In this document: in pieces, positions 20 through 17,912 of the stretch | Position numbering within the stretch: the stretch's first letter is position 1 | Layout: each line of letters begins with the position of its first letter | Made by a program: the position numbers and the translations under genes | Notes under the pieces: generated by a model | Database searches by the model: none | The model's input: only the letters and a program-made list of their open reading frames with translations | What the model was told of the DNA's origin: nothing | Source of the DNA: Pseudomonadota bacterium | Lineage (GTDB): Bacteria; Desulfobacterota; Binatia; UBA12015 | Assembly: GCA_005777805.1 (NCBI GenBank) | Contig: SXLG01000123.1 | Span: 1-45,794 of the forward strand | DNA length: 45,794 nt | Direction of reading: 5' to 3'

Positions 20-643
20 TCAGCCCAGCGCTTGGCGCACGCGGGCAGCGATCTCGTCGGGCGTCCACTCGATGCGTGGCGCAGGCGGGCCCTGGTCGGC
101 GATGGTCTCGACCAGCACCATCGCCGGCCCCTCGGCCGCGAGCGCGCGGCGCAGGGCGGACTCGAGGTCCGGCGCGGCGCACACGCGCAGGGCCAGCGCG
201 TAACCAGCGGCACGGGCGACGTCCTCGAGAGGCACCTCTGCGGAAATAGTCGCTTGTCCACCGGTCGAAGCATAGACGCCGTTGTCGATGACCAGGTGCA
301 GGAAGTGGCGCGGCCGCGATGCGGCGATGCGGGCCAGCGTGCCCATGTTCATGAGCACGTTGCCGTCACCGTCGACCACTGCGACCGGCCGGTCGGGCTG
401 TGCCAGCGCGACGCCAAGCCCGATCGAGGAGGCGAGCCCCATCGAGCCGATCATGTAGAAGTGCTCCGGACGGTCGAGGGCCGCGTGCGCCCAGCGCGAG
501 AGAAAACCGTTGGCGCACACGACCGCTCGACCGGCGAGCAGAGGCATCGCGAGAGCGAGCGCGCGGCGCGTGTCGAGCCGGCCGTCCTCTTCGCCCGCGG
601 CCCCGCCCCGTCGCGCCGGCCCGGCTCTCGAAGTCCGGGTCAT
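20..643 (-). CDS. Phosphonopyruvate/sulfopyruvate decarboxylase, beta (TPP-binding) subunit
   Basis: The protein (207 aa) is the thiamine-diphosphate-binding half of a ComE/Ppd-type decarboxylase, which converts phosphonopyruvate to phosphonoacetaldehyde and makes PEP mutation irreversible. The TPP/Mg motif is visible as VVDGDGNVLMNMG, followed by the helix and LVIDNGVYASTGGQ typical of the family. The preceding MIGSMGLASSIGLGVALAQ is the usual glycine-rich entry to this fold. Family single-chain enzymes are about 375-400 aa, so this is one half; the alpha half lies immediately upstream in the operon. I chose the ATG at 643 because it follows a duplicated segment and gives a normal-length subunit; the ORF-track start lies inside the alpha gene. 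A sulfopyruvate substrate cannot be excluded from sequence, but the adjacent PEP mutase favours phosphonopyruvate. The stop lies 19 bp from the window edge, so further operon genes may be missing. Confidence 0.85.
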   Translation of the reverse strand: MTRTSRAGPARRGGAAGEEDGRLDTRRALALAMPLLAGRAVVCANGFLSRWAHAALDRPEHFYMIGSMGLASSIGLGVALAQPDRPVAVVDGDGNVLMNMGTLARIAASRPRHFLHLVIDNGVYASTGGQATISAEVPLEDVARAAGYALALRVCAAPDLESALRRALAAEGPAMVLVETIADQGPPAPRIEWTPDEIAARVRQALG

Positions 644-714
644 GCGGACAATCCAGCGGGCACGACCAGCGTCGCCGCGCACCCGGGCTGCGGTCCCGGC
701 CGACCCCTGCTCAT
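640..714 (-). CDS. Possible 24-codon micro-ORF created by the duplication
   Basis: An ATG at 714 overlaps the alpha-subunit TGA and opens a 24-residue frame ending in VVPAGLSA, an echo of the alpha C-terminus VVPAGLFA. Its stop overlaps the beta-subunit ATG in the same TCAT arrangement. It may only be a by-product of the duplication, or it may couple translation from alpha to beta. There is no evidence that the peptide is functional. Confidence 0.25.
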   Translation of the reverse strand: MSRGRPGPQPGCAATLVVPAGLSA

Positions 715-740
715 GCGAACAATCCAGCCGGCACGACCAG
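640..740. repeat. Imperfect 30-bp direct repeat, period 71 bp, between decarboxylase subunits
   Basis: Copies at 640-669 and 711-740 begin tcatgcgRacaatccagcSg and agree at 28 of 30 positions. Each copy contains a TGA stop overlapping an ATG on the minus strand. The upstream copy is the 3' end of the alpha gene and the downstream copy is the junction to the beta gene. The sequence between them (670-710) is unrelated to either flank. This looks like a duplicated stop/start junction. Confidence 0.85.
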
Positions 741-1211
741 TGCCAGGGGCCGCGACTCCGTGGCGCAAAAGCCGCGCGCCCAGGCCACGTCCGCTTCCAG
801 GGTGTCGGCGCCGAGCCGCCGCCAAGGAACCTCGATCGCGTCGAGAATGGCCGGCATCGCGCGCCCCATGACCAGATGCTCGGGAGCGTCATGCCCGCCC
901 TCGCCGCGCCAGGTCACGACCAGCAATACGGGCAGCCGGTAGATCGCGTGCAGCGAGCCGATGGCGTTGATCGACACGCCAAGCCCGGAGTTCTGCATCA
1001 GGACGACCGGCAACCGCCCCGCCAGCGCGGCCCCGGCCGCAAGCCCCAGCGCTGCGTCTTCGCGCGTCTCGGCGATCCAACCCTCGGGCACGAGAGCTGC
1101 GATCACCGAGCCGACGAGCGAGCAGGGCACCCCGGTGAAGAAGTCGAAACCCTGCTCGCGCAACAGGCCGGCGAACGCCGCGCCACGCGCTGCGGCCTGA
1201 TCCACGCTCAT
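711..1211 (-). CDS. Phosphonopyruvate/sulfopyruvate decarboxylase, alpha (PYR) subunit
   Basis: A 166-residue pyrimidine-domain half of the TPP decarboxylase. It starts MSVDQAAARGAAFAGLLREQG and has the family landmarks DFFTGVPCSLVG near residue 25, an ETREDAALGLAAGAALAG segment carrying the conserved catalytic Glu, and LMQNSGLGVSINAIGSL near residue 75. These match ComD and the N-terminal half of single-chain Ppd. It would pair with the beta subunit next door, with the active site at the subunit interface. I chose the ATG at 1211 because the upstream in-frame extension in the ORF track is arginine-rich and unlike the family. There is a 61-bp gap to the preceding gene. Confidence 0.85.
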   Translation of the reverse strand: MSVDQAAARGAAFAGLLREQGFDFFTGVPCSLVGSVIAALVPEGWIAETREDAALGLAAGAALAGRLPVVLMQNSGLGVSINAIGSLHAIYRLPVLLVVTWRGEGGHDAPEHLVMGRAMPAILDAIEVPWRRLGADTLEADVAWARGFCATESRPLALVVPAGLFA

Positions 1212-1272: not shown

Positions 1273-1932
1273 TCACCTCGCCTCCCGGCGGACGCGCGCG
1301 TAGTCCCGAAGCGCGCCGAGCGCGGCCGCCGTGCTGGCAGCCTGCGGCGGCGTTCCCGGATGCTCGCCAAAGCCCTCATCCGTCCACGCCGCAAAGAGCC
1401 ACGCCATCGCGAGTTCGACGGCGCGCGCAGCACCGCCACCCGCACCCGGCTCGACCGTGGCAGCCTGGGCGAGCGCCAGTGCGGCCATCGCGGCGCGCGC
1501 CGCCGCGGCGGTAGCGATCACCGAGGCGCGCTCCCAGTCGGCACCGGCGGCAGCGCCGAAGCCACCGCCCGGCATCTGCAGGGCGAGCAGTGCGTCGAGC
1601 GCTGTTTCAAGCTGCGAGTTCGGCCCCGTCTCGGCCGGCGCGCGGGTGCCGGCGCCCGTGCTCGCGGCGGCGATCTCGACGCGGAGCCGCTCGATACCCT
1701 CGGCAACCCGCCGTACCGCCTCGTCAGCGGGTTCACTCAGCGCGTCAATGACGCCGTCCCGCCGTGCGACCTCGCCAGCGTACCCATCGGTCTCTCTACC
1801 GGCGTGGCTCTCGCGTTCGAGCGCCGGCAGCACGGCCTCCAGGCCGGTGATCAATTCCGCCAGTGCCTCGGCCTCGTTGGCGGCACTCTCGGCGCGCAGC
1901 GCGGCCAGCGTCTCGCCGCCGTGGACCGTCAT
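1273..1932 (-). CDS. Unrecognised protein with prenyltransferase/terpene-cyclase-like repeats
   Basis: The 219-residue product has a charged, probably helical N-terminal half (about residues 1-95, rich in Glu, Ala and Arg). The C-terminal half holds two stretches resembling the alpha/alpha-toroid repeat of squalene cyclases and protein prenyltransferases: LLALQMPGGGFG near residue 120 and WTDEGFGEHPGTPPQAAST near residue 185, each followed by an alanine-rich helix. The ATG overlaps the PEP mutase stop by 4 bp (ATGA), so the two genes are translationally coupled. The family enzymes need more repeats than are seen here, so catalysis is not implied. A role in maturing or binding a phosphonate or lipid product would be inference from context only. 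Confidence 0.55.
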   Translation of the reverse strand: MTVHGGETLAALRAESAANEAEALAELITGLEAVLPALERESHAGRETDGYAGEVARRDGVIDALSEPADEAVRRVAEGIERLRVEIAAASTGAGTRAPAETGPNSQLETALDALLALQMPGGGFGAAAGADWERASVIATAAAARAAMAALALAQAATVEPGAGGGAARAVELAMAWLFAAWTDEGFGEHPGTPPQAASTAAALGALRDYARVRREAR

Positions 1933-3617
1933 CCGCGCAACTCTGCCCAGGCGCGGCGGTAGTCGGCAAAGCTGTCGATCTCCATCCAGCCCTTGTGGAC
2001 CTCGACGCAATCGACGTCGTGGCCGCGATCGAGCAGCTCCTGGAGGAGATCGGTCAGGCTCGCTCGGCCCAGGTCCAGGGCCTCGTGAAAACCGCCCGGA
2101 CGGCCCGCCAGCTCGGCGCAGACCTGACGCACGAGGGCCGCGCCTGCCGCCGAGAGCAGCACGAGTCCGATGAACTCGCCGTCCGCCTCGTCCCGTGCGA
2201 GGCTCTGCCCGATGCGGCGCAGGCGCACGCCCTCGCCCGGCACGAAGCGGCCTGCCTCCGGCCGCGCGCCCCCCTCGGTCACCACCAGATCGAGCGCGCT
2301 CGGGGGCAGGGTGCCGAGCCGCCGCGACTCCGCAAACGCCCGATCGACGACGACGGTGATGTCGCCCGTGGCGCGCAGCAGCCGGGCCACGATCGCGTCG
2401 TCAAAGACCACATCACCGTAAAGACAAAGCAGGGAGCCCTCGAGTTCACGCGCCGCGAGCAGAAACGACACCATCTCGCCGGACTGGGCATACTGCTCGT
2501 TGTCGAAGTAACGGAGGTTGGGGACGTTGACCGCCTCGCGCCGGTAGCCGCGCACGACCGCGATCTCGCGGATGCCGTTTGCGTTGAGTGCTGTGACCTG
2601 ACGCTCGAGCACCGTTCGCCCGCGCACGTCGAGCATGCAGCGCGGCCGATCGGCCGTGATCTCGCCAAGTGCGCCGTCATCGCCCGCAGCGAGCACCACC
2701 GCCGTCACCGGGGAACCACTCATCGGAAGGTAGCGCGATTCGTTGTCACGCAGCTCGTCGAGACCCACCAGCCGATAGATCTCCTCGAGCGGCGCGATTT
2801 CGCGCTCGACGTCAAGCGCTCTGCCCGCGCGCAGGCGGCCGAGCGATTCACGCATGGCGACGACCGCCGCCCGCAACGACTGGTTGGCATAGATCACCAG
2901 CCGGAAGCCGGCAGATTGCAGCTCGTCGAGGGGTGTCCCGATGTAGGTCGTCGGCACGGCGACCAGCGGGGTCGGCCGATCCCAGGCGCGCGCCACGCAG
3001 CGCAACTCGTCGAGATCGGGCGCCTTCGAGTGTACCAGCACGGCGTCGGCGCCGGCGTCAGCGTATGCCCGGGCGCGGCGCATCGCCTCGTCGTGGCCCC
3101 AGCCCGCGATCAGCGCCTCGGTGCGCGCGATGACGACGAACTCGGGATCGCGTTGGGCCGATTTCGCCGCCGCGACCTTGCCGGCGTGCTCTTCGACCGG
3201 AGCCAGCTCACGTGCCACCCCGGAATAGAAACTGCAACGCTTGGGGAAGACGTTGTCCTCGATGCAGATCGCCGCAATGCCAGCCGCCTCGAAATCCTGC
3301 ACCGTGCGCAGGACGTTGATCGCGTTGCCAAAGCCGGTGTCGCAGTCGGCGATGACCGGGATCGTGGTCGCATCGACCATCGCTCGTGCGGCCTCGAGGG
3401 TCTCGTTCATCGTGAGGATGCTGGCGTCGGGCACCGCGCGCACGGCCGAGATCCCGAATCCACTCGCCCAGATGGCATCGAACCCGGCCTGCTCGGCAAG
3501 CCGGGCCGAGAGCGCGTCGTGCGCACCGCAAGCCACCACCTGCGCGCGCTCGGCAAGCGCACGCCTCAAGGAACGCTTTCCCCTGGACACGCAACGGCCG
3601 TAACGCTTCGCCCACAT
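1929..3617 (-). CDS. pepM: PEP mutase fused to a nucleotidyltransferase (phosphonate biosynthesis)
   Basis: The product has two domains. Residues of about 10-300 form an isocitrate-lyase/PEP-mutase barrel: GAHDALSARLAEQAGFDAIWASGF, a DCDTGFGNA metal-binding segment and an IEDNVFPKRCS loop, later VIARTEAL. The last roughly 240 residues are a sugar-phosphate/choline-type nucleotidyltransferase (VTAVVLAAG, then LYGDVVFDD). PEP mutase makes phosphonopyruvate from PEP; fused cytidylyltransferases of the PntC/Fom1 kind activate a phosphonate as its CMP derivative. The catalytic loop departs from the canonical EDKxxxxxNS: the Lys is Asn and the Asn is Cys, the latter as in the KRC of methylisocitrate lyases. 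The nucleotidyltransferase also has PR where PK is usual. I chose the ATG at 3617, preceded by a GGGAGGGGG tract; a GTG at 3590 fits the family start nearly as well. Confidence 0.8.
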   Translation of the reverse strand: MWAKRYGRCVSRGKRSLRRALAERAQVVACGAHDALSARLAEQAGFDAIWASGFGISAVRAVPDASILTMNETLEAARAMVDATTIPVIADCDTGFGNAINVLRTVQDFEAAGIAAICIEDNVFPKRCSFYSGVARELAPVEEHAGKVAAAKSAQRDPEFVVIARTEALIAGWGHDEAMRRARAYADAGADAVLVHSKAPDLDELRCVARAWDRPTPLVAVPTTYIGTPLDELQSAGFRLVIYANQSLRAAVVAMRESLGRLRAGRALDVEREIAPLEEIYRLVGLDELRDNESRYLPMSGSPVTAVVLAAGDDGALGEITADRPRCMLDVRGRTVLERQVTALNANGIREIAVVRGYRREAVNVPNLRYFDNEQYAQSGEMVSFLLAARELEGSLLCLYGDVVFDDAIVARLLRATGDITVVVDRAFAESRRLGTLPPSALDLVVTEGGARPEAGRFVPGEGVRLRRIGQSLARDEADGEFIGLVLLSAAGAALVRQVCAELAGRPGGFHEALDLGRASLTDLLQELLDRGHDVDCVEVHKGWMEIDSFADYRRAWAELRG

Positions 3618-4383
3618 GCAGACAACCAGTCCCCCTCCCTCGTCGGACACGCGGGGCGCGTCCAAGCCGCTGATGCGGCCCGTCGGTGCTCGGTCCCAAC
3701 TCACTACCTGACGCGACCGCCGCCGCCGTACTGTCGTCGACGGTCACGAATGAATCGAGCGACAGAGGCTCTGCCGCCAGCAGGTCACGCATCAACTCCC
3801 GGCCACTCTCGCCCGCCATGCGCGCGGCGAGATCGAGCCGCTCGCGCGCCACGATTTGCCGGGCCACCGCGCGATGCGCGGCCTGCTCGCCGCCGTCCAT
3901 AAAGCTGCTCGGTGAGCAGGCTGATCGGCGACAGCGTAGCCGGACCCAAGCCGCAAACGACCCAGTTCCTCGTCGGCATGGACGGCGCAGAGGTCGCCAG
4001 CGGAGACCTCACGCGCGCCCCAAGCCGTGGACCACGCTGCTGCTACGGCAGCGACCCGCCGAAGCGCGTGCCCGTCCAGCGCGGGCCGCCCGCGAGGGCT
4101 CGCCTCCGGGCTCGGCTCAGGGGCAAAACCACCCCGCTGCACGCGATGCGAGGCGTAGCGGGCGCCCGCGCAGGTGGGCCCCCGTTGGGCGCGACTCCGG
4201 CGACCGGATCCGCTTGAGCAGCGACCGCCCCATCCACTCCCGGCCCCCGCTGCGCCAAGTGCCCGGGCCAGCTCGCCAGCGGCCCATATCGACACACGGC
4301 ATTGACCACCGGCGGTCGATCGTGCGATGCCCGAGGAACATTACCCCCTCCTGCCCCTCGCGTCTCTCCCGGAGGCCAGCCCC
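3618..4383. other. Gene-free stretch upstream of the phosphonate operon
   Basis: This 766-bp stretch separates the minus-strand phosphonate operon from the plus-strand cysteine-rich gene, so it should hold both promoters. No convincing complete gene is present. On the minus strand, a piece around 3890-4090 (AAVAAAWSTAWGAREVSAGDL in frame) and another around 3660-3900 (MDGGEQAAHRAVARQIVARE) look more protein-like than their surroundings but lie in different frames. They could be a frameshifted relic, or chance in GC-rich DNA. Confidence 0.4.
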
Positions 4384-7300
4384 ATGCTCCAGACCGTGCC
4401 CCCTGCGGCGTCTGATGCCCACCGAAAATCTGTCTTGGGGCGCGCGCCGCGGGGCGTGACAAGGCGTTACCCGCGAGTCCTGCTCGGCACGAGCCTGGTG
4501 CTCCTTGTCCTCGGCTCGGCGCGGGGGGCGGCCGCGCTCTGCACCGCCAACGAGCTCTGTGGCGCAAGCGCCAATCCTTGCGTCATCAGCGGCGCCATCC
4601 GGACCATCGGCCCGGCCTGCGTGCTCGATTTTGGCAGCCGCGCGGTGCAGATCACGACAACCCTCAAGGCCGAACAGGCCCGCGGCTCGTTCGAGCTGCG
4701 CGCTGGCACGCTCACCCTGAGCGGTAAATTGCTCTCTACGGGTTCCGCCAGCGCTCCTGGAGGCACGATCCGGGTCCAGACCAGCGGGGCCTTTCAGATG
4801 ACATCTACCGCCGACATCGATTTGAGCGGCGGCCTGGGCGGCGGCGATCTCGTGGTGGTGGCGGGATCGATCAATTGGGCCGGGGGCAGCGTCAAGGCAA
4901 GCGGCACGAGTACCGACGGCGGCGGTGGCAGCATCTCGCTCGTGGCCGGCGGCAGCGTCGTGGTGGCAGCCGCGTTGACCGCCGAAGGCGGGCGCGCGTC
5001 GGGCGGTGGTCCCGTCGAGATCACCGGGGACGATGTCACGGTGCGCGCCAGCATCAACGTCGATGGTGGAAACTTCGATGGCGGCTCGGTCACGATCACA
5101 GCGGCCGATGCGCTCTCGGTACTCGGCTCGACCACGCAGATCAGCTCGCACGGCGCTCTCGCCGACGAGTTCGCCGGCTATGGCGGAGACATCACGCTCA
5201 GCGCCGGGGGCAACTTGCGCTTCGAGGGTCAGATCGAAAGTCTCGGCGCCGCGCCCGATGCCAGCGGTGGCTTCGTGGACTTGTCCGCTGGGGGCTCGGT
5301 CGAACTCGTCGCGGGCTCGACGATCACCTCGACTGTCGCGAGCGGCGAAGGCACGGGCGGTGACGTGAGCCTCGGGGCGGGGCTAGATGTCACGGTCGCC
5401 GGCGTGCTTGACGCGGGCGGGCCGGCGCAAGGTTTCGGCGGCAACATCAACGTCGCGGCGACACGTGACGTGACCATCGCCACCAGCGGGCGGCTCCGGG
5501 TCGACGCCGGTGAGATGGCCGGCATGGTGAGCACGCATTCACCACGACTCTTGACGGCCGCCGGCCTGATCGACGCGCGGGGCGGCAGCGGCGGACTCGG
5601 GGGAGACATCATCCTCGGCCCGCATTGCCGGGCCGTCCTGCGCGGCACGTTCTACGCCGGCGCGGCTGGCGCCGGCCGGGCCGGCTCGGTCCAGACCCTT
5701 GCGGCGACCCTTGCCATCGAGGCGCCGGCGGTGCTGACGGCGACGCCATGCAGCACCCCGTCCACCGGTTGCATCCGCATCAGTTTGCCCGCGGGCAGCC
5801 CAAGTATCGACACCGGTACGACTTTGAATCCAACTGCAGTGGTGACCTTGGCACCGTCGTTGCGGCCCTGTTGTGGCGACGGAACTCTCGATGTCGGCGA
5901 GGCCTGCGATGACGGCAACCGACTCTTCTGTGATGGTTGCAATTCGTCCTGCGACGTCGAGGGAAGTCCCGCCTGCCCGGCCGACGGTCGCCTCTGCACC
6001 GCCGACTGCCATCCGACCCAGGGCTGCGTCTTCACCAACGAGCCCGATGGTTCGGCGTGCTGGGACGACGGCTCGGTCTGCACCACCGACACCTGCGCCA
6101 GCGGCTGGTGCCGCCACGATCCGATGGTCTGCAACGACGGCATCGCTTGCACCACCGATTCCTGTCACGCCACGCTGGGCTGCACCGCCGCACCCGACAA
6201 TTCCCGCTGTGACGACAGGATCGCTTGCACCGTCGACACCTGCAGCACCACTCTCGGCTGTACCGCCGCGCCCGACAACTCACGCTGCGACGACAGCATC
6301 GCTTGTACCACCGATGCCTGCAGCACCACTCTCGGCTGTACCGCCGCGCCCGACAATTCACGCTGCAACGATGGCGTCGCTTGTACCACCGATGCCTGCA
6401 GCACCACGCTCGGCTGTACCGCCGCGCCCGACAATTCACGCTGCAACGATGGCGTCGCCTGTACCAACGATACCTGCAGCGCCACTCTCGGCTGCACCGC
6501 CGCGCCCGACGATTCGCGCTGCGACGACGGCGTCGCTTGCACCAACGATACCTGCAGCACCACTCTCGGCTGTACCGCCGCGCCCGACGATTCGCGCTGC
6601 GACGACGGCATCGCCTGCACCACCAACTCCTGTCACGCCACGCTCGGCTGCACCGCTACGGCCGACCATTCCCTCTGCGACGACAGCATCGCTTGTACCA
6701 CCGATGCCTGCAGCACCACTCTCGGCTGTACCGCCGCGCCCGACAATTCACGCTGCAACGATGGCGTCGCCTGCACCAACGATACCTGCAGCGCCACTCT
6801 CGGCTGTACCGCGGCGCCCGACAATTCACGCTGCAACGATGGCGTCGCCTGTACCAACGATACCTGCAGCGCCACTCTCGGCTGTACCGCCGCGCCCGAC
6901 AATTCACGCTGCAACGATGGCGTCGCCTGTACCAACGATACCTGCGACGCACTCGCCGGCTGTCGCCGCATCGCCGACAACTCACGCTGCGACGACGGCA
7001 TCGCCTGCACCAACGATACCTGCGACGCGCTCGCCGGCTGCGTCCGCACCGGCGACGACACGCGCTGCGCAGACGGCAACCCGTGCACATCGGACCACTG
7101 CCAGAGCAACGTCGGCTGCCGCAGCATCCCGGGCAACGAGGGGGCGACCTGCGAGGACGGCAGCGTCTGCACCCTCGGCGATCGCTGCGTCCGGGGCGCC
7201 TGCGCCGGGCGCACTCTTCTTGTCTGCGACGACGACAACCGCTGTACGACCGATCGCTGCGAAGCGACGACGGCTTGTGTCTACGAGGAAGAGCCCGCGC

Positions 7301-8364
7301 TCTGCTCCTGTGGCACGGCGTCATCGCCGGTGCCGGCGGGTAGCGACTGTGCCGATGGCGAGGGCTGCACCGCTGGCGATCAGTGTGATGGTGCGGGCCT
7401 CTGCCAGCCGGGAGCGGCGCGCGACTGCAACGATGGCGACGCCTGCACCAGCGATATTTGCAGCGACGGGCGCTGTACCCACGACGATTCCGGCTGCGCC
7501 ACGACCTGCGCTGGTCTCGCCGACGGAACACCGTGCAGCGATGGCCAGGTTTGCAACGTCGGCACCTGCGCCAGCGGCGCTTGCGTCACCGAGACCATCG
7601 ATTGCGACGACGGCAGCGCCTGTACCGGAGCCGAATTCTGTACCGAGAGCGAAGGTCTCGGCTGCGTCGGCAGCGATGCCTCGCCCTTCGCCTCCATGTG
7701 CCGCGCGGCCGACGACTACCGCTGCTACAAAGCGCGAATCGCGCCCGGCAACAGGCCACCCCCCACGCGCAGCGTGCAGGTCGCAACGGTGTTCGGAACC
7801 AGGCTCCTGCGTACCGGAGCGGCGACTCTCTTCTGCGACCCGGTCTCGACCGACGCGGCCGGGCGGATTGACGCTGCGGCGGGGCTCGGCTGCTACCAGC
7901 TCCGGGCCGACAAGGGCGACAGCCCACCCCCAGCGCGCACCCTTCGCATCCGCAACGTCTTCGGCTTGCAGTCGCTGAGCGTGCGCGAGCCCGCGAATAC
8001 TCTGTGCCTGCCCTCGACGGTCGGCGGGGTCTCGATGGCCGGAGTCCACGACGAGCGGGCCTGCTTCACCGTGCGCGGGCGCCGCTTCCCGGGGACGACG
8101 CACGGCTTCCTCGATGCCTTCGAGGACATTCGGGCGACAGTGCTGCAGCCGATCATGCTCTGCCTTGCGACGGCCCGGGACGGCGTCGCCGCCAGCGCGC
8201 CCGAGGAACACCTGCTCTGCTACCGAACGCGCGCGGCCTCATCGGTCACGACCTCGAGCCGGTACTCGGTGAGCCTCTCCAACGACTTCGACGGCCTTGG
8301 CCCCCAGGCGCTCGGCACCACCCAAGCCCACAGCATCTGCGTGCCGACCCGGATCGAGAGCTGA
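4384..8364 (+). CDS. Large secreted cysteine-rich repeat protein with beta-solenoid-like N-terminus
   Basis: A protein of about 1326 aa. The start is the ATG at 4384, nine bases after GGAGG, and gives an N-terminus with basic residues, then VLLGTSLVLLVLGSARGAAA, a signal peptide. Residues of about 50-460 are glycine- and serine-rich and repetitive (GGSISLVAGGSVVVAAAL and similar), suggesting a beta-helix. A CCGDGTLDVGEACDDGN module of the Myxococcus disulphide-repeat type follows. Next come twelve 26-residue units of the form CDDGIACTTDSC...LGCTAAPDNSR, then looser relatives. The C-terminal about 215 residues hold four modules that open with CY or CF and close with LC/FC (for example CYKARIAPG...LFC). 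All cysteines suggest an oxidised extracellular location. The function is unknown; an adhesive or surface stalk role is inference. A hairpin follows 7 bp after the stop. Confidence 0.85.
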   Translation: MLQTVPPAASDAHRKSVLGRAPRGVTRRYPRVLLGTSLVLLVLGSARGAAALCTANELCGASANPCVISGAIRTIGPACVLDFGSRAVQITTTLKAEQARGSFELRAGTLTLSGKLLSTGSASAPGGTIRVQTSGAFQMTSTADIDLSGGLGGGDLVVVAGSINWAGGSVKASGTSTDGGGGSISLVAGGSVVVAAALTAEGGRASGGGPVEITGDDVTVRASINVDGGNFDGGSVTITAADALSVLGSTTQISSHGALADEFAGYGGDITLSAGGNLRFEGQIESLGAAPDASGGFVDLSAGGSVELVAGSTITSTVASGEGTGGDVSLGAGLDVTVAGVLDAGGPAQGFGGNINVAATRDVTIATSGRLRVDAGEMAGMVSTHSPRLLTAAGLIDARGGSGGLGGDIILGPHCRAVLRGTFYAGAAGAGRAGSVQTLAATLAIEAPAVLTATPCSTPSTGCIRISLPAGSPSIDTGTTLNPTAVVTLAPSLRPCCGDGTLDVGEACDDGNRLFCDGCNSSCDVEGSPACPADGRLCTADCHPTQGCVFTNEPDGSACWDDGSVCTTDTCASGWCRHDPMVCNDGIACTTDSCHATLGCTAAPDNSRCDDRIACTVDTCSTTLGCTAAPDNSRCDDSIACTTDACSTTLGCTAAPDNSRCNDGVACTTDACSTTLGCTAAPDNSRCNDGVACTNDTCSATLGCTAAPDDSRCDDGVACTNDTCSTTLGCTAAPDDSRCDDGIACTTNSCHATLGCTATADHSLCDDSIACTTDACSTTLGCTAAPDNSRCNDGVACTNDTCSATLGCTAAPDNSRCNDGVACTNDTCSATLGCTAAPDNSRCNDGVACTNDTCDALAGCRRIADNSRCDDGIACTNDTCDALAGCVRTGDDTRCADGNPCTSDHCQSNVGCRSIPGNEGATCEDGSVCTLGDRCVRGACAGRTLLVCDDDNRCTTDRCEATTACVYEEEPALCSCGTASSPVPAGSDCADGEGCTAGDQCDGAGLCQPGAARDCNDGDACTSDICSDGRCTHDDSGCATTCAGLADGTPCSDGQVCNVGTCASGACVTETIDCDDGSACTGAEFCTESEGLGCVGSDASPFASMCRAADDYRCYKARIAPGNRPPPTRSVQVATVFGTRLLRTGAATLFCDPVSTDAAGRIDAAAGLGCYQLRADKGDSPPPARTLRIRNVFGLQSLSVREPANTLCLPSTVGGVSMAGVHDERACFTVRGRRFPGTTHGFLDAFEDIRATVLQPIMLCLATARDGVAASAPEEHLLCYRTRAASSVTTSSRYSVSLSNDFDGLGPQALGTTQAHSICVPTRIES
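6130..7065 (+). repeat. In-frame 78-bp minisatellite, 12 units
   Basis: Twelve consecutive 78-bp units, each encoding 26 residues, run from the first Cys codon of CNDGIACTTDSC to the Cys of CADGNPC. Units 9 and 10 encode the same 26 residues. Units 3 and 8 also encode identical peptides, and units 1 and 7 share the rarer CHATLGC variant, so a block as well as single units appears to have been duplicated. The repeat keeps frame because 78 is a multiple of three. It generates several long false ORFs in the other frames. Confidence 0.95.
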
Positions 8365-8371
8365 CCGAAGA

Positions 8372-8396
8372 AAGCCTCGGGTTCATCCCGAGGCTT
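8372..8396 (+). terminator. Intrinsic-terminator-like hairpin after the cysteine-rich gene
   Basis: AAGCCTCGGG and CCCGAGGCTT form a perfect 10-bp stem with a 5-nt loop (ttcat), starting 7 bp after the stop codon. No U-tract follows; the next bases are GGGCGGGGG. Position and stem perfection support a 3'-end signal. Confidence 0.7.
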
Positions 8397-8505
8397 GGGC
8401 GGGGGCCCTCCCACTGGATCGGCTCCCCCGACGGGCGCCCCGGCGTCGCGCGAATGCATGGCTGGGAGAGGGCTTGGCCCCGAACTTCGCAGGCCAGAGC
8501 ACCCT

Positions 8506-8525
8506 AGTAAGTATTTTTACTTACT
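8506..8525. promoter_or_regulatory. AT-rich perfect palindrome upstream of second cysteine-rich gene
   Basis: AGTAAGTA and TACTTACT are perfect 8-bp inverted arms around a TTTT spacer, and the right arm continues as TACTTACTTAG. The site lies about 80 bp before the next gene in a stretch that is conspicuously AT-rich for this genome. This is the arrangement of a dimeric regulator site or a promoter-proximal operator. Which protein binds is unknown. As RNA it could also form a short hairpin, though the T spacer is central and not 3'. Confidence 0.5.
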
Positions 8526-8607
8526 TAGATAGGCGTTACACTTGCCACAGCGTGGCGTGGTCATCAGGGTTAACCCTATGGAAAAGGAGTTCAACTCGGG
8601 GAGGCCT

Positions 8608-10323
8608 ATGGATTCCAGGCATCCGCTGGCTCTCGTTTCGGCCACGGCACGACCCCGTGACCGTGCTCATCCCCGGGCCCTGCGCGCGCTCCTGGTCGCC
8701 GCCCTGGTGCTCGGGAGCGTGCCGCCGGGGCGCGCAGACGAGGTCGCGCAGGAACAGGACTTCGCCCTGATCGGGCTTCACGAAATGCGGGTCGGCACGC
8801 ACGCTCAGCTGCGGACCGGCAGCGTGGCGCTGTGTGGACCGGCCGCCCTGCCGGCCACTGTCGGAACCGGAGCCCGTCTCGGCGATGGCACCCTGCTGGC
8901 CGCCCCAAGCGTGCTGGTGATGGTCGGCGCGAGCGTGTTCGACGTGCAGACCGGCAGCCTGCAACTCATGCCCGGTGCCACCGTGCGCGGGACCGCCGAC
9001 TCGACAGCAGCTCCGACGATGTCGTTCTGTCAGCCCGAGGCACCTCTCGATGTCGAGCTGGGCAGTGCAGCCGTGGTCGTGCCGCGCGATCTATCGCTGA
9101 CGCTGGCGCCGGGCGCCTACTCCAGAATCGTCGTGCAGGAGCGAGCCTCGCTCGTGCTCGAGGGCGGTCGCTATGACGTCCGCGACGTCACCCTCCTCAA
9201 CGGCGCGGCCCTGCGTGCGGCGGGGCCGATCGACCTGCGCGTCGCCAATAAACTCAAGACCGGCGTACAGAGCTTTATTGGACCGCTCCCGGGAAGCGGA
9301 ATCGGTGCCGACCAGATCGCGATCAACGTCATCGGAACACGCTTCTATGCCGGCCCGAAGACACGTCTGATCGGCCGCATCCGAGCACCTGCGGCAAAGG
9401 TCACCCTCGGCGACGTCGCGACCCTCGAAGGCCAGATCCTTGGCGATCGGGTGCGGGTCCTGAACCGCTGCAGCGCCTCGCGTTGCGGCAACGGCGTGAT
9501 CAATCCCGGCGAGGAATGCGACGGCGCCGCCGACGAAACCTGTTCGGGACGATGCCTGGTATCGTGCCGTTGCGCGGATGACGTACCGACGCCGACCCCC
9601 GGCCCTTCGCCCACACCGGGGCCCTCGGGAACTCCGGTGGAGCCGCCGACCCCAACGCCAACGCCAGCCCCGACTCCCACGCCGGCGCCGACGCCACGGA
9701 TTCCGACCTGCGGCGACGACGTGCTCGATCCACCGGGAGAAGAGTGTGACGACGGCAATCTCGCCAATGACGACGGCTGCTCGTCCACCTGCAGGCTCGA
9801 AGCTGGCGACTTCTGCAGCTTTACCCAGGGGGGTTGGGGCGCGACGTGTGCGGGCTCGAATCCGGGCTGCCGGCGTGACACGGGCTTCGTGACCGCGTTT
9901 CCAGACGGGCTCCGCCTTGGCGACGCGGGCGGCCCCGACGGCCCGAACTCGGGCTGGACAGCGCTCTTCACCTCGGCTGCGGCCATCGACGCCTTCCTCC
10001 CAGCGGGCGGCAGACCCGCCGTCCTCGGCGTCGACCTCGTCGATCCTCTGACCACGGCCGCGGGCAACCTGGCCGGGCAGCTCGTCGCGGCTCATCTCAA
10101 CCTCGCCATCGCCGGGCTGCCGGCCGATCTTGAGTTCGTGGCGTGCGTCGACGAGTCGCTCGAAGGACTCACGGTGGGGGAGATCGTCGATCTCGCCGAT
10201 CTGGTCGTCGCGGGCCTGGTCGTACCCGGCGGCCCATCGCCGAGCACTCTCGTCACCGCACTGACCGCTCTCAATGAAAATTTTGACAACTGCAATACCA
10301 ATCGGGGTTGTCTCGGACGCTAG
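8608..10323 (+). CDS. Secreted cysteine-module protein with proline-threonine linker
   Basis: A protein of about 571 aa with an n-region of basic residues and ALRALLVAALVLGSVPPGRA as signal peptide. Residues of about 45-290 form a beta-rich domain with repeated short strands (ATVRGTADSTAAPT, LAPGAYSRIVVQERASLVLEGG). A CGNGVINPGEECDG module follows, then a TPTPGPSPTPGPSG-type linker of about 50 residues, then a second module CGDDVLDPPGEECDDGN. The C-terminal about 180 residues contain LGVDLVDPLTTAAGNLAGQL and an ESLEGLTVGEIVDLADLVV stretch seen in other exported proteins, but I cannot name it. The start at 8608 has GGGGAGG just 3 bp upstream; the ATG at 8578 is the alternative. Probably surface or extracellular; function unknown. 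Confidence 0.8.
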   Translation: MDSRHPLALVSATARPRDRAHPRALRALLVAALVLGSVPPGRADEVAQEQDFALIGLHEMRVGTHAQLRTGSVALCGPAALPATVGTGARLGDGTLLAAPSVLVMVGASVFDVQTGSLQLMPGATVRGTADSTAAPTMSFCQPEAPLDVELGSAAVVVPRDLSLTLAPGAYSRIVVQERASLVLEGGRYDVRDVTLLNGAALRAAGPIDLRVANKLKTGVQSFIGPLPGSGIGADQIAINVIGTRFYAGPKTRLIGRIRAPAAKVTLGDVATLEGQILGDRVRVLNRCSASRCGNGVINPGEECDGAADETCSGRCLVSCRCADDVPTPTPGPSPTPGPSGTPVEPPTPTPTPAPTPTPAPTPRIPTCGDDVLDPPGEECDDGNLANDDGCSSTCRLEAGDFCSFTQGGWGATCAGSNPGCRRDTGFVTAFPDGLRLGDAGGPDGPNSGWTALFTSAAAIDAFLPAGGRPAVLGVDLVDPLTTAAGNLAGQLVAAHLNLAIAGLPADLEFVACVDESLEGLTVGEIVDLADLVVAGLVVPGGPSPSTLVTALTALNENFDNCNTNRGCLGR

Positions 10324-13485: not shown

Positions 13486-14562
13486 ATGAAGGCAGCAATT
13501 CTGAGGGCGGTCGGCGAGCCTCTCGAAATCCGCGACGACGTCAAGGTCTGCGACCTCGGCCCCGGCGACGTCCACGTCAAGCTGGTATCGAGTGGCGTCT
13601 GCCACTCGGACCTCTCGGCCCAGAACGGCACCATCCCCTCGGGCACGCCCTGCGTACTCGGCCACGAGGGCGCGGGTGTGGTGCTCGAATGCGGCGACCA
13701 GGTGCGGCGCGTCAAGACCGGCGACCACGTGATCATCTCGTTCACGCCCGCCTGCGGCGTGTGCCTGCCCTGCATGCGCGGCCAGTCCAACCTGTGCAAC
13801 TTCCTGATGCAGATGATGATGACCCCGCACTTCGAGATCGGCGGCCAGAAGGTCGTCGGCTTCACCGGGTGCGGCACTTTCGCGGAAGAGCTGGTCATCT
13901 CCGAGCACGCCCTGGTGAAGGTCGCCGACGACATTCCGCTCAACGTGGTGTCACTGATCGGCTGCGGCGTCACCACCGGGGTCGGTGCCGCGATCAACAC
14001 CGCGGGCATCAAGCCCGGTTCGTCGGTCGCCGTGATCGGCGCAGGCGGCGTCGGCATCGCCGCCATCCAGGGCGCACGCATCGCTGGCGCTGCCGAAATC
14101 GTCGCGATCGACCTCGTCGAGTCAAAGCTCGAGATGGCGAAAAAGTTCGGCGCCACGCACGCCGTCAAGCCTAGTGATATCGAAGGCGTGAAGAATGAGG
14201 TCACGCGCGGCGAGGGCTTCGACTACGTGCTCGAGTGCATCGGCCACCCCTCGACCATCCGCCAGTGCTTCGACCTGGCCCGCCGCGGCGGCACCGCGGT
14301 CGTGGTCGGCGTCGGCCGCATGGACCAGACCATCCAGTTCAGCGCCTTCGAGCTCTTCTTCAGCGAGAAGAACTTCAAGGGCTCGATGTACGGCTCGGCC
14401 AACGTGCGGGTCGACTTCGACCGCCTGCTGCGCCTGTGGAAAGCCGGCAAGCTCGATCTGGAAGGGATGATCAGCCGCCGCATCCGCGTGGACGATGTCA
14501 ACGACGCCTTCCGCGCGATGCAGGCCGGCGAGGTCATCCGCTCGGTGATCGACTACAACTGA
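13486..14562 (+). CDS. Zinc-dependent class III-type alcohol dehydrogenase
   Basis: A 358-residue medium-chain dehydrogenase. Catalytic-zinc ligands are visible in GVCHSDLSAQNG and GHEGAGVV, and the structural-zinc cysteines in CGVCLPCMRGQSNLC. The NAD(P)-binding fold has VAVIGAGGVGIAAIQGARIAGA near residue 185. The family oxidises primary alcohols or reduces the aldehydes with NAD, and includes formaldehyde- and mycothiol-dependent members; the substrate is not determined here. The ATG at 13486 has GAGGAG nine bases upstream. It is monocistronic: a strong hairpin follows 7 bp after the stop. A phosphonoacetaldehyde-reducing role with the phosphonate operon 10 kb away is conceivable but unsupported. 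Confidence 0.9.
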   Translation: MKAAILRAVGEPLEIRDDVKVCDLGPGDVHVKLVSSGVCHSDLSAQNGTIPSGTPCVLGHEGAGVVLECGDQVRRVKTGDHVIISFTPACGVCLPCMRGQSNLCNFLMQMMMTPHFEIGGQKVVGFTGCGTFAEELVISEHALVKVADDIPLNVVSLIGCGVTTGVGAAINTAGIKPGSSVAVIGAGGVGIAAIQGARIAGAAEIVAIDLVESKLEMAKKFGATHAVKPSDIEGVKNEVTRGEGFDYVLECIGHPSTIRQCFDLARRGGTAVVVGVGRMDQTIQFSAFELFFSEKNFKGSMYGSANVRVDFDRLLRLWKAGKLDLEGMISRRIRVDDVNDAFRAMQAGEVIRSVIDYN

Positions 14563-14569
14563 GGCACAC

Positions 14570-14601
14570 GGGCGAGCGGGCTGGCCGGCGCCCGCTCGCC
14601 C
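14570..14601 (+). terminator. Terminator-like hairpin after alcohol dehydrogenase
   Basis: GGGCGAGCGGG and CCCGCTCGCCC form a perfect 11-bp stem with a 10-nt loop, starting 7 bp after the stop. As with the hairpin at 8372, no U-tract follows. Confidence 0.75.
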
Positions 14602-14945
14602 CGCAATCCGACCGCGATCGATTGCCGTCGTTGCCGCCGGCAGGGCCTCATCGGCCCCCCCCGAAGCCCGCGACGGCCTCTGAACTGCCGGCCAGGTCGC
14701 TGGCGCGTATCGACCGTGGCTCACCCCGAGCCCCAAGGCACCGGAGGACGGTGTGGTCTCGCGACCCACCTCGCGGCAGCGAAGGTCAGTTCCTAGTTGT
14801 GCGACTGGGCAAATCCCTCCCGCGCAAAGCCGCCGCACCTGCTCGCAGAGTGCCTGCCGACCCAACAGATGCCATTGACAGCACCCGTCCTGTGGGGACA
14901 GGTTCTATCAGTTCGTCCGAGAACCCCGATCTCCTGAGAAGCACA
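14602..14945. promoter_or_regulatory. Leader of the secreted glycosidase-like gene, possible -35 and inverted repeat
   Basis: The 344-bp gap holds no gene. A consensus -35 hexamer TTGACA occurs at 14875-14880, and a small inverted repeat CCTGT-GGGG-ACAGG at 14889-14902 sits where the spacer and -10 would be. No good -10 lies at normal spacing; TTCTAT is 22 bp away. The assignment is therefore weak. Confidence 0.3.
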
Positions 14946-17912
14946 ATGCCAGAACGCACTTGTCTACCCCGCGGGCCGCTCGTCACGATCCTCTGCCGGG
15001 CCACTCTGGCCATGGGCCTGGTGCTGGCCGCGAGCACTCCGCCCGCCGGTGCCGAGACGCTGACCGGCGAGAGTGTCCGCCTTGACTACCACGCCGACCC
15101 CTTACGCGGCTTGGTCTTGACGGCGCTCGGTGACACCGACTCAGCAACGGCGTTCTCGCTCAGCGAGCGCGACATCTGGGAGATCGAGTTGGTCGATCCG
15201 ACCGCTCCCGCGCCGCTGGCGTCCGGCGTCATCACAATCACGCCCTCGACGAGCACCTCCACCTTCTCCCTCACTCCCCGCGCGGGCGGCTTCGGCGCAA
15301 CCTGGGCGGGCGTCAGGTCGCCGCTCCTGCCCTCGGGGGATACGCTTGATGTCCACGTCGACGCGACAGTCCCGCCCGGCGACGCCGTGGTCGAACTCCG
15401 CATCCACGTGGTGGCCACAACCCCGAGCTTGGCGCTCTACGGCGTGCGCTTCCCGCTCGTCCACGTCAAGCAGCGGGGCGCACCAGCCGACCAGCGTCTG
15501 GCCTGGCCCTACGCCGGCGGGTGGCTGTTGCACGACCCGGTCCACGGCAACCCTCTCGTCATCGACCCCGCGACCTACGGCCTGGCCAAGGACGTCATCC
15601 ACCCCGGTTACAAGGTCAGCATGCAGTTCATGTCGTACTACGACGCCAGCGAGACCGACGGCCCCAACCTCTACTTCGGCACGCGCGACACCACCGGGCA
15701 CGTCAAGGAGTTCCTGGTCTCGCCGACCATCGCACCCCAGGTCGAGGGTCTCCTCCTCGGTACCCGCCAGATCCCCGAGAACAACCTCAGGCCCGCGGGC
15801 GAATACACCGCGCCATGGCCCTTCGTGCTCGGAGTGATCCGTGGCGACTGGTACGACGCCGCCCACCTCTACCGCACCTGGGCCCTCGAGCAGAGTTGGA
15901 CGGCCGGGGGGCCGATGCGCACCAACCCCGACTTCTCGCCGCTCGTGCGCGACGCCCCGATGTTCGCCTTCACGGAGGCGCCCAGCTCGGGCGATTTTGC
16001 CTGGTGGGAACGCGACGTCGCGGACCAGGAGACCTACTTCGGCGTCACGGGAATCGCCACGCACGTCCAGCGCTGGCACAACAACCAGTTCGACGACGAC
16101 TGGGGGGACTGGTTCCCGGCCGACCCGAGCTATGTGGCCGCCGGTCCCACGCTGGCTGCCGCGGGAAACCCGCATGCGCCCTATGTGATTCTCAATTATT
16201 ATTCGAGTGACGCACACGATTACGCGAACTCGGAGGTACCGGGCTTCGCAGGACATGCCGTCAGCGAATTCGCCGCACTGGGCGAAGATGGTACCCGATT
16301 GACGATCGCCGAGCCGCAGGGCAGCGAGTCCGCGTCATTGCTCTGCCACGCGACCGGCTTCATGTCCGCCTATGCCACGACCCTCGCCGAACGGCTCCAC
16401 GCCGAGGTCGGCGCCCAGGGCCTTTACCTCGACATCTTCAGCGGAGAACCCGCGCCGCTCTGCTATGACCTCGCGCACGGTCACCCGACCGGCGGGGGCG
16501 ACGCCTACAATCTCGCGCGTCTCGATCTCGTGCGGTCACTGAAGACCACGCTGCGCGCCTCGGCCCCCGGGTTCTTCCTCTACAGCGAGAACCTGAACGA
16601 GATGTTCCTGGGATTGACCGAACTCCTCTACGCCCACCACAGCTTCGACGCCTACTACGATGGGGCGACCCCTCGCAAGCAGATCATTCCTCTCTTCACC
16701 ACGGTCTACAACGATCATCTCGCGATCGGAATGGTGGCTCCGATCCAGATTCCGTTCGTCAACTACTTGACCCCGAATCGCCTCGACCCCATCCTGCGGA
16801 TCCGTCGGCGCGAATACCAGGCGCAGCTTCATCTGGGCCACGAACCCCGAGCCGGCTCGGGTCTGAGCACGGTGAGCCTCGCCCAGAACCTCGCGACGCT
16901 GCCGCAGGTTGCAGCGGCCTACGAATCGATTCGCGACAGCGTCACGCTGCTCGAGGTTCCAACGGTACGTGGGCATGTCCGCTTCGGCGAACGCCTGCGC
17001 GATCCCACGACCGACGCGGTGCAGGTCCTGCCGGTGTTCTCACCCATGCCCGACGTCTTCCTCCCGCTGAGCCTGACCCAGCCGGTGGTCTACACCTCGG
17101 CCTGGCGCGCCCCGCGTCATGGCGGCGCCGGACTCCTCCTGATCAACTGGACATTGACGGGGGAGCCGCTTTGTACAGCTACGCCTCTCTGTGAGATCTT
17201 CACGCCCGAACTCCTCGGCGGTGACCAGAACGTCGAGTGGACCCTCGATCCGGCCCGCTACGACCTGACCGCGGGCCGCTACCGTCTGACCGAGATCGCC
17301 CCCACCGGCACGGTCGCCTCGGAGCTGATCGACATCGGGACGACGCCGCTGACGCGCACGCAGGCTGTCCCGGCGGGATCGGCGAGATTCGTCCAGCTCG
17401 CGCCTGCGTATTGCGCCGAGGCCGCGCCGGGATCGTGCAGTCCGGGCGGCACCGGAAACCGCGAATGTGCGCTGGAGTTGCGGACTCACCCAGTCGCCCC
17501 GCTCTCCCGCGGGCTACCCGGCACCAAACTCTCGTGCCGCGACGGCGACAGCACCTGCGATGGCGACGGCACGGAAAACGGCACCTGCACCATCGGGCTG
17601 GCGATCTGCCTCAACAACGCCGACCCTCGCCTGCCCGCCTGCACGCCTGCGCCGGTGGCCACGCTCGAGTTGCTGGCACCGAGCGTGGCGACCACAACGA
17701 CCAGTCCCGTGCTTGCTCCCTTGCGGGCGATCCTGAGTGACGCCGTGGACGTGCTCATGACCGCCCCCGGCGCAGCCGACAACTGCACCGAGATGCTGCC
17801 GCTCCCCGTGCCGGCGGGGCGGAGGGTAGCCGTCGCACTGCGCGTCAAGCTTACCACTCGGCAGCCCGACGCCGATACGATCCGGCTCGGCTGCACGCAG
17901 GCCGCCGGTTGA
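14946..17912 (+). CDS. Secreted glycoside-hydrolase-like protein (DUF6259-like)
   Basis: A 988-residue exported protein with signal peptide (LATMGLVLAASTPPAGAE-like hydrophobic stretch after a basic start). An N-terminal beta-sandwich of about 230 residues is followed by a probable TIM barrel. Suggestive segments are WPFVLGVIRGDWYDAAHLYRTWA, then WHNNQFDDDWGDWFPADPSY, GLYLDIFSGEPAPLCYD and FFLYSENLNEMF; the YLDIF and SENLNE segments are placed where catalytic Asp and Glu sit in related barrels. These features recall DUF6259/GH101-like glycosidases, but I cannot name the substrate. The last about 180 residues are cysteine-containing and beta-rich (CRDGDSTCDGDGTENGTC). Start is the first ATG giving a clean signal peptide. 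It is alone on this strand and converges on the ccm operon. Confidence 0.7.
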   Translation: MPERTCLPRGPLVTILCRATLAMGLVLAASTPPAGAETLTGESVRLDYHADPLRGLVLTALGDTDSATAFSLSERDIWEIELVDPTAPAPLASGVITITPSTSTSTFSLTPRAGGFGATWAGVRSPLLPSGDTLDVHVDATVPPGDAVVELRIHVVATTPSLALYGVRFPLVHVKQRGAPADQRLAWPYAGGWLLHDPVHGNPLVIDPATYGLAKDVIHPGYKVSMQFMSYYDASETDGPNLYFGTRDTTGHVKEFLVSPTIAPQVEGLLLGTRQIPENNLRPAGEYTAPWPFVLGVIRGDWYDAAHLYRTWALEQSWTAGGPMRTNPDFSPLVRDAPMFAFTEAPSSGDFAWWERDVADQETYFGVTGIATHVQRWHNNQFDDDWGDWFPADPSYVAAGPTLAAAGNPHAPYVILNYYSSDAHDYANSEVPGFAGHAVSEFAALGEDGTRLTIAEPQGSESASLLCHATGFMSAYATTLAERLHAEVGAQGLYLDIFSGEPAPLCYDLAHGHPTGGGDAYNLARLDLVRSLKTTLRASAPGFFLYSENLNEMFLGLTELLYAHHSFDAYYDGATPRKQIIPLFTTVYNDHLAIGMVAPIQIPFVNYLTPNRLDPILRIRRREYQAQLHLGHEPRAGSGLSTVSLAQNLATLPQVAAAYESIRDSVTLLEVPTVRGHVRFGERLRDPTTDAVQVLPVFSPMPDVFLPLSLTQPVVYTSAWRAPRHGGAGLLLINWTLTGEPLCTATPLCEIFTPELLGGDQNVEWTLDPARYDLTAGRYRLTEIAPTGTVASELIDIGTTPLTRTQAVPAGSARFVQLAPAYCAEAAPGSCSPGGTGNRECALELRTHPVAPLSRGLPGTKLSCRDGDSTCDGDGTENGTCTIGLAICLNNADPRLPACTPAPVATLELLAPSVATTTTSPVLAPLRAILSDAVDVLMTAPGAADNCTEMLPLPVPAGRRVAVALRVKLTTRQPDADTIRLGCTQAAG

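Follow-up and report, generated by a model that had tools for sequence, protein, structure and literature searches.

The PepM fusion protein encoded in the window (the whole 45,794-nucleotide stretch analysed here) is very likely a functional phosphoenolpyruvate (PEP) mutase and belongs to a conserved class not recognised before, here termed Cys-type (loop EDN-x5-CS). This reading is drawn from the residue pattern, the fold match, the lack of any other PepM in the genomes concerned, co-occurrence with phosphonopyruvate decarboxylase (Ppd), the content of the gene clusters and replacement by canonical PepM, from which we infer the chemistry itself. An earlier sequence-only reading had offered a mutase with a changed mechanism, a hydrolase or lyase, or an unexplored subclade; the subclade stands and a mutase is strongly favoured, whereas a hydrolase or lyase is disfavoured because Ppd is present in genomes that lack any other PepM, and because canonical PepM replaces the Cys-type protein.

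The window protein and its catalytic loop

The loop EDNVFPKRCS, placed at 3231-3260 by the sequence-only reading, lies there exactly, as residues 149-158 of the minus-strand ORF 3704..1929 (Table 1), and HMMER aligned it with the catalytic loop of the solved PEP mutases 5unc and 1m1b. The two substitutions first noticed, Lys to Asn and Asn to Cys, are K116 to N and N122 to C in the numbering of the Mytilus PEP mutase; T121 is also replaced, by R, and E114, D115, K120 and S123 are as in the Mytilus enzyme. The missing lysine is thus K116, the second loop lysine, K120, being kept. The KRC triplet is, as had been claimed, that of lyase-type relatives, including two lyase-like paralogs (EDQTWPKRCGH and EDQVWPKRCGH) that are the only other family members in the window's own, 70% complete genome. 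Apart from the loop the protein is indeed PEP-mutase-like, with the markers W44, D58, D85, E114, K120, S123, R159, E161 and H190. Sequencing error, frameshift or chance was rejected as the origin of the loop, because the N116 and C122 pair recurs in 62 further unique homologous domains and the loop is conserved across dozens of genomes. To call the loop altered is misleading, since it belongs to a conserved class outside the EDK..NS clade and not to a doubly mutated canonical mutase. Homology to relatives begins near residue 43, so translation probably starts at ATG 3617 or GTG 3590.

Table 1. Features of the pepM operon in the window
Feature	Coordinates	Strand	Remarks
PepM + NTP_transf_3 fusion protein	1929..3704	-	591 aa as ORF
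PepM domain, Cys-type, residues about 43-328	2721..3578	-	predicted fold closest to PEP mutases 5unc, 1pym
Catalytic loop EDNVFPKRCS, residues 149-158	3231..3260	-	N116, K120, R121, C122, S123 (Mytilus numbering)
Fused nucleotidyltransferase-fold domain, residues 329-591	1932..2720	-	predicted fold closest to PntC (6pd2)
Protein of unknown family, about 219 aa	1273..1932	-	no Pfam or NCBIfam match
ppdA, alpha half of phosphonopyruvate/sulfopyruvate-type decarboxylase	711..1211	-	
ppdB, beta half of phosphonopyruvate decarboxylase	20..643	-	start unsure, 643 or 547

In a fold search with an AlphaFold model of the PepM domain (pLDDT 91.8), the best 15 PDB matches were PEP mutases and phosphonopyruvate hydrolase (PPH), with E values of 5e-35 to 2e-28 and a top TM score of 0.96 to 5unc; lyases ranked after them (E about 1e-22; identity about 29-34%). 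The predicted overall fold is therefore nearest to that of solved PEP mutases.

The claim of a phosphonate-type operon with a fused nucleotidyltransferase held for ppdA, ppdB and the fusion, but the fused domain is itself unusual: its GxGxR nucleotide-binding signature is degraded (AAGDDGALGEITADRPR; AAGDDGALG), and it thus lacks the mark of a PntC cytidylyltransferase. GxGxR is also lost in the fused domains of loci L100-L119, L121, L125, L130 and L132-L135, whereas the separate PntC-like nucleotidyltransferase (NTase) in the same clusters keeps it. It is accordingly doubtful that the fused domain is a working cytidylyltransferase, and in these operons that role may not fall to the fused domains at all. 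The loss is independent of the Cys loop, because fused domains of canonical PepM have lost GxGxR too.

The ATG of the 1273..1932 gene overlaps the pepM stop codon (ATGA), which suggests translational coupling; among the loci examined, a homolog of its product lies between pepM and ppdA only in the closest relative, L004 (7587-8324). Because the window begins at contig base 1, the operon is truncated just downstream of ppdB and the rest lies outside the sequence; any transaminase and separate NTase genes of its own would lie beyond the contig end. On the other side, two large ORFs at 4306-10323 (+), one with many Cys-rich repeats (Dicty_CTDC match), separate pepM from metallophosphoesterase, ferredoxin and alcohol dehydrogenase genes. 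L004 carries homologs of these genes upstream of pepM without the two large ORFs, so that an insertion or deletion distinguishes the two loci. A large DUF6259-domain protein of unknown function (1225 aa ORF) is encoded at 14235-17912 (+).

Extent, residue pattern and phylogeny of the Cys-type class

A first genome scan, seeded in part with the loop peptide, returned 25 relatives, all with EDNVFPK[RK]C[ST]FY. Because such a scan alone is circular, we then used TIGR02320, a profile derived from canonical mutases, to search about 300 genomes from Nitrospirota, 294 from Planctomycetota, 297 from the window's phylum, 297 from the Acidobacteria-type phylum, 237 from the Polyangia phylum and 247 from the actinobacterial phylum. 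Scores across these six phyla formed two groups, and the window protein, at 279 bits, fell under the PEP-mutase cut-off of 319.55. The loops of 164 unique domains, pooled from these searches and the first scan, and of three PDB sequences were K116/N122 (95), N116/C122 (63), Q116/C122 (7, lyase types), K116/T122 (PPH, 1) and S116/C122 (1), and among these sequences there was no mixed K/C or N/N loop. The single S116 case, the acidobacterial homolog L174 with EDSAFPKRCSFF, is the only Cys-type loop without N116. EDN-x-[FY]PK-x-C occurs in 63/63 unique Cys-type domains across phyla; neither the window protein nor any of the 63 carries EDK(X)5NS. Cys-type proteins were found in 25 of the 94 PepM-bearing Nitrospirota genomes sampled and in at least 18 of 32 such genomes in Planctomycetota; the class is widespread, not rare, but overlooked. 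Of the 15 plasmid-record matches listed, three were examined for a cultured Cys-type protein, and they had EDK..NS (one) or EDK..TS (two).

The class keeps the mutase markers W44, S46, D58, D85, D87, E114, K120, S123, R159, E161 and H190, among them every metal-site and substrate residue expected of a PEP mutase (D58, D85, D87, E114, K120, R159, H190, W44 and S123), with few exceptions (L027, for instance, has N for D87 and T for S123). Every member lacks N122, regarded in the literature as a phosphoryl contact and as belonging to the mutase signature. Set against known PEP mutases (PepM/Ppm, TIGR02320; Mytilus 1pym/1m1b, Streptomyces 5unc), Cys-type proteins thus share the fold, the metal site, R159, H190, S123, K120 and W44, as well as the fusion to an NTP transferase and the link to Ppd and 2-aminoethylphosphonate (AEP) transaminase, and differ in (nearly) all members through a coupled set of positions: F for L at 48, N for K at 116, C for N at 122, R for Q at 130, H for F at 138 and an invariant T at 160, where canonical enzymes mostly have V or I. 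They also score under the family cut-off and fail the EDK(X)5NS definition. T160, elsewhere a trait of the Cys class and of lyases, was also seen in the canonical EDK..NS mutases L182, L184, L186, L187, L189-L195 and L065. Canonical enzymes pair K116 with Q130, the Cys-type pairs N116 with R130 and lyases pair Q116 with K130, a pattern suggestive of a single positive charge that sits on one flank of the loop or the other.

Lyase-like traits of the class are the KRC triplet, T160 and a basic residue 130, which also occur, together with a polar uncharged residue 116, in 2-methylisocitrate/isocitrate lyases (PrpB; KRCGH or KKCGH). The Cys of these lyases serves as the acid and donates a proton to the departing carbanion (Cys191 of isocitrate lyase, equivalent to Cys123 of methylisocitrate lyase; PMC7609661). 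PpdA and PpdB, moreover, resemble sulfopyruvate decarboxylase as well. The protein might on these grounds be a C-C lyase of the methylisocitrate lyase kind, a hydrolase or a decarboxylase, using its Cys as an acid on a related 2-oxo or 2-hydroxy acid in a cluster whose product is not a phosphonate. We consider this quite improbable: lyase-type relatives have Y/F/V44, G123, D161 and E190, whereas the window has KRCSF, E161 and H190, and the class as a whole is without G123-H, D161, E190 and the aromatic Y/F44, its H190, W44 and S123 being mutase-like. PrpB-type gene context is missing as well; the PntC-like NTase, AEP transaminase and CDP-alcohol transferase are what aminoethylphosphonate calls for, with no obvious function if the compound were a carboxylate or sulfonate, and canonical PepM takes over the same pathway (see below).

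In a tree built after the loop columns and position 160 had been removed from the alignment, a branch with support of 100/96 separated the EDK..NS proteins plus PPH from the Cys class (100/99 for the EDK..NS proteins when PPH and other long rows were left out), and the Cys class sat between that group and the lyase outgroup. A single Cys-type clade was not rejected (AU p 0.26 and 0.29), both a clade and a basal grade being compatible with the data. By this tree the Cys class is not nested within the EDK..NS mutases, while PPH is. Alignment and tree bear out the suspected unexplored subclade, and the tree, together with the finding that no loop combines K with C or N with N, led us to reject a single altered canonical mutase.

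The same tree bears on whether the Cys-type protein could cleave the C-P bond as PPH does, with N122 gone and water entering the closed site as proposed for the hydrolase with its Thr122. PPH (PalA, 2dua/2hrw) likewise lacks N122 and has the same fold, F48 and A84 are common to it and the Cys-type, F48 setting both apart from canonical mutases, and 2dua is the second-best PDB sequence match of the window PepM domain. According to the literature its context is catabolic. However, PPH combines Thr122 with K116 and Q130 and falls within the EDK..NS clade, well away from the Cys-type proteins, which have neither that residue pattern nor a place in the PPH branch. A hydrolase would also starve the biosynthetic gene set, since 25/25 genomes have no other phosphonopyruvate source yet carry genes for Ppd, the transaminase, CTP activation and lipid transfer. 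We therefore regard hydrolysis as very improbable.

Gene context and replacement by canonical PepM

No protein of the 25 Cys-type genomes, the Cys-type PepM included, reached the TIGR02320 cut-off; the family members next in rank scored 141 bits or less, and no genome in the six-phylum samples had both a Cys-type and a canonical PepM. Ppd was present in 22 of the 24 Cys-type genomes checked, mostly as separate alpha and beta genes, including genomes where it does not adjoin pepM. In one Nitrospirota draw it occurred in 19/19 Cys-type, 56/56 canonical and 33/171 PepM-less genomes (Fisher's p 1e-12, kinship ignored), counts that assume that the second draw contains all first-draw genomes up to G566. 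Near 48 Cys-type loci we found PpdA (34), PpdB (34), AEP transaminase (32), a separate NTase (34), a CDP-alcohol transferase (23) and a flippase-like protein (21); at the 14 loci with no Ppd nearby, most of the genomes have it elsewhere. Cys-type PepM is therefore genetically linked to phosphonopyruvate decarboxylase, as expected of a PEP mutase. The neighbouring transaminase is PhnW/AepZ-like (329 bits against a cut-off of 361), the separate NTase has PntC as its best PDB match, and the flippase-like neighbour is an LPG_synthase_TM protein. PpdA, PpdB, AEP transaminase, an intact PntC-like NTase, CDP-alcohol transferase and the flippase-like protein make up the usual phosphonolipid set, and Cys-type PepM is the only plausible first enzyme of these clusters. 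The canonical-pepM phosphonolipid clusters of Nostoc cyanobionts (PMC5987646) and the pnt pathways (PMC6697681) likewise combine pepM, ppd, AEP transaminase, NTP transferase, CDP-alcohol transferase and an HpnL-like membrane protein, and in Nostoc this set has been described as a phosphonolipid cluster (PMC5987646); the clusters studied here differ in having a Cys-type PepM, Ppd as two genes, and a fused NTP domain beside a separate intact NTase. Loci L132-L135, from the window's phylum, have a similar cluster but with a canonical EDK..NS PepM.

Most Nitrospirota Cys-type loci have the order flippase, CDP-alcohol transferase, NTase, AEP transaminase, PpdB, PpdA, after which one or two small conserved genes, pepM and RND efflux genes run in the divergent direction. 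In ten Nitrospirota genomes with canonical PepM the block from PpdA to the flippase was intact and the pepM slot held no intact pepM; in nine of the ten the flanks were the same as at Cys-type loci. The canonical pepM of these ten genomes was located elsewhere. Decayed Cys-type pepM remnants occupied the slot in L239 (10012-10526) and L241 (5681-5956), the L239 fragments, interrupted by stops and frameshifts, matching residues 22-175 and 540-570 of a Cys-type protein. This would most simply be explained by the arrival of a canonical PepM and the subsequent decay of the Cys-type gene, by then redundant. Replacement in the same pathway is our best evidence that the two types share one job. It bears also on the idea that the Cys-type protein is a non-catalytic or regulatory relic, the true C-P-forming step lying elsewhere, to which the fused NTP domain lends something, since its lost signature means that degenerate domains do occur in this protein. 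A relic is nevertheless barely credible, given that the loop is near-invariant, that the catalytic metal-site residues are all kept, that no second PepM accompanies it, and that decay was seen only where canonical PepM is present.

Proposed mechanism and implications

In the proposed pathway, Cys-type PepM would isomerise phosphoenolpyruvate to phosphonopyruvate on Mg2+, and PpdA with PpdB would decarboxylate the latter to phosphonoacetaldehyde, drawing the product off. The PhnW/AepZ-like transaminase would then yield 2-aminoethylphosphonate, to be activated with CTP by the separate PntC-like enzyme and attached to lipid by the CDP-alcohol transferase. In the Mytilus mutase D85 binds Mg2+, and D58, D87 and E114 hold its waters; the phosphoryl group is contacted by R159 and H190 and, as proposed, by N122 and S123, and the change N122T has been held to account for what separates hydrolase from mutase (PMC7916636); of these residues the Cys class is without N122 only. 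Phosphoryl transfer would probably be dissociative, as in the Mytilus enzyme, and be carried out by D58/D85/D87/E114-Mg2+, R159, H190 and S123. Because a mutase requires no lyase-type proton, we propose that C122 would stand in for N122, gating the loop and contacting the phosphoryl group. The replacement of K116/Q130 by N116/R130 would shift one positive charge across the loop. A changed mechanism is possible; a direct chemical role for C122 is possible but unlikely. It is likewise unlikely that the Cys-type is the older form of PEP mutase, derived directly from a K-R-C lyase-like ancestor, such that C-P bond formation would predate the EDK..NS motif and C122 would act directly in phosphoryl transfer, for example as a proton donor or transient S-phosphoryl acceptor.

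We found no literature describing the Cys-type class (the 2013 PNAS survey of pepM diversity lay outside the search) and none joining phosphoenolpyruvate mutase, Nitrospira and phosphonate. EDK(X)5NS is the strict PepM criterion in published surveys (PMC6697681, PMC8931226, PMC12723261), and Rice 2019 excluded every PF13714 protein without it, including 22 fused ones; because the motif serves as a hard filter, the class was left out of these surveys, and NCBI's PEP-mutase model likewise would not name its members. The same motif is the gate for counting phosphonate producers in genomes and oceans, so if the Cys-type is active, C-P bond formation has been under-counted. Asn, Thr and Cys are all now known at position 122, the residue held responsible for the difference between mutase and hydrolase, and an active Cys-type enzyme would give a natural comparison for which loop residues set a mutase, a hydrolase or a lyase.
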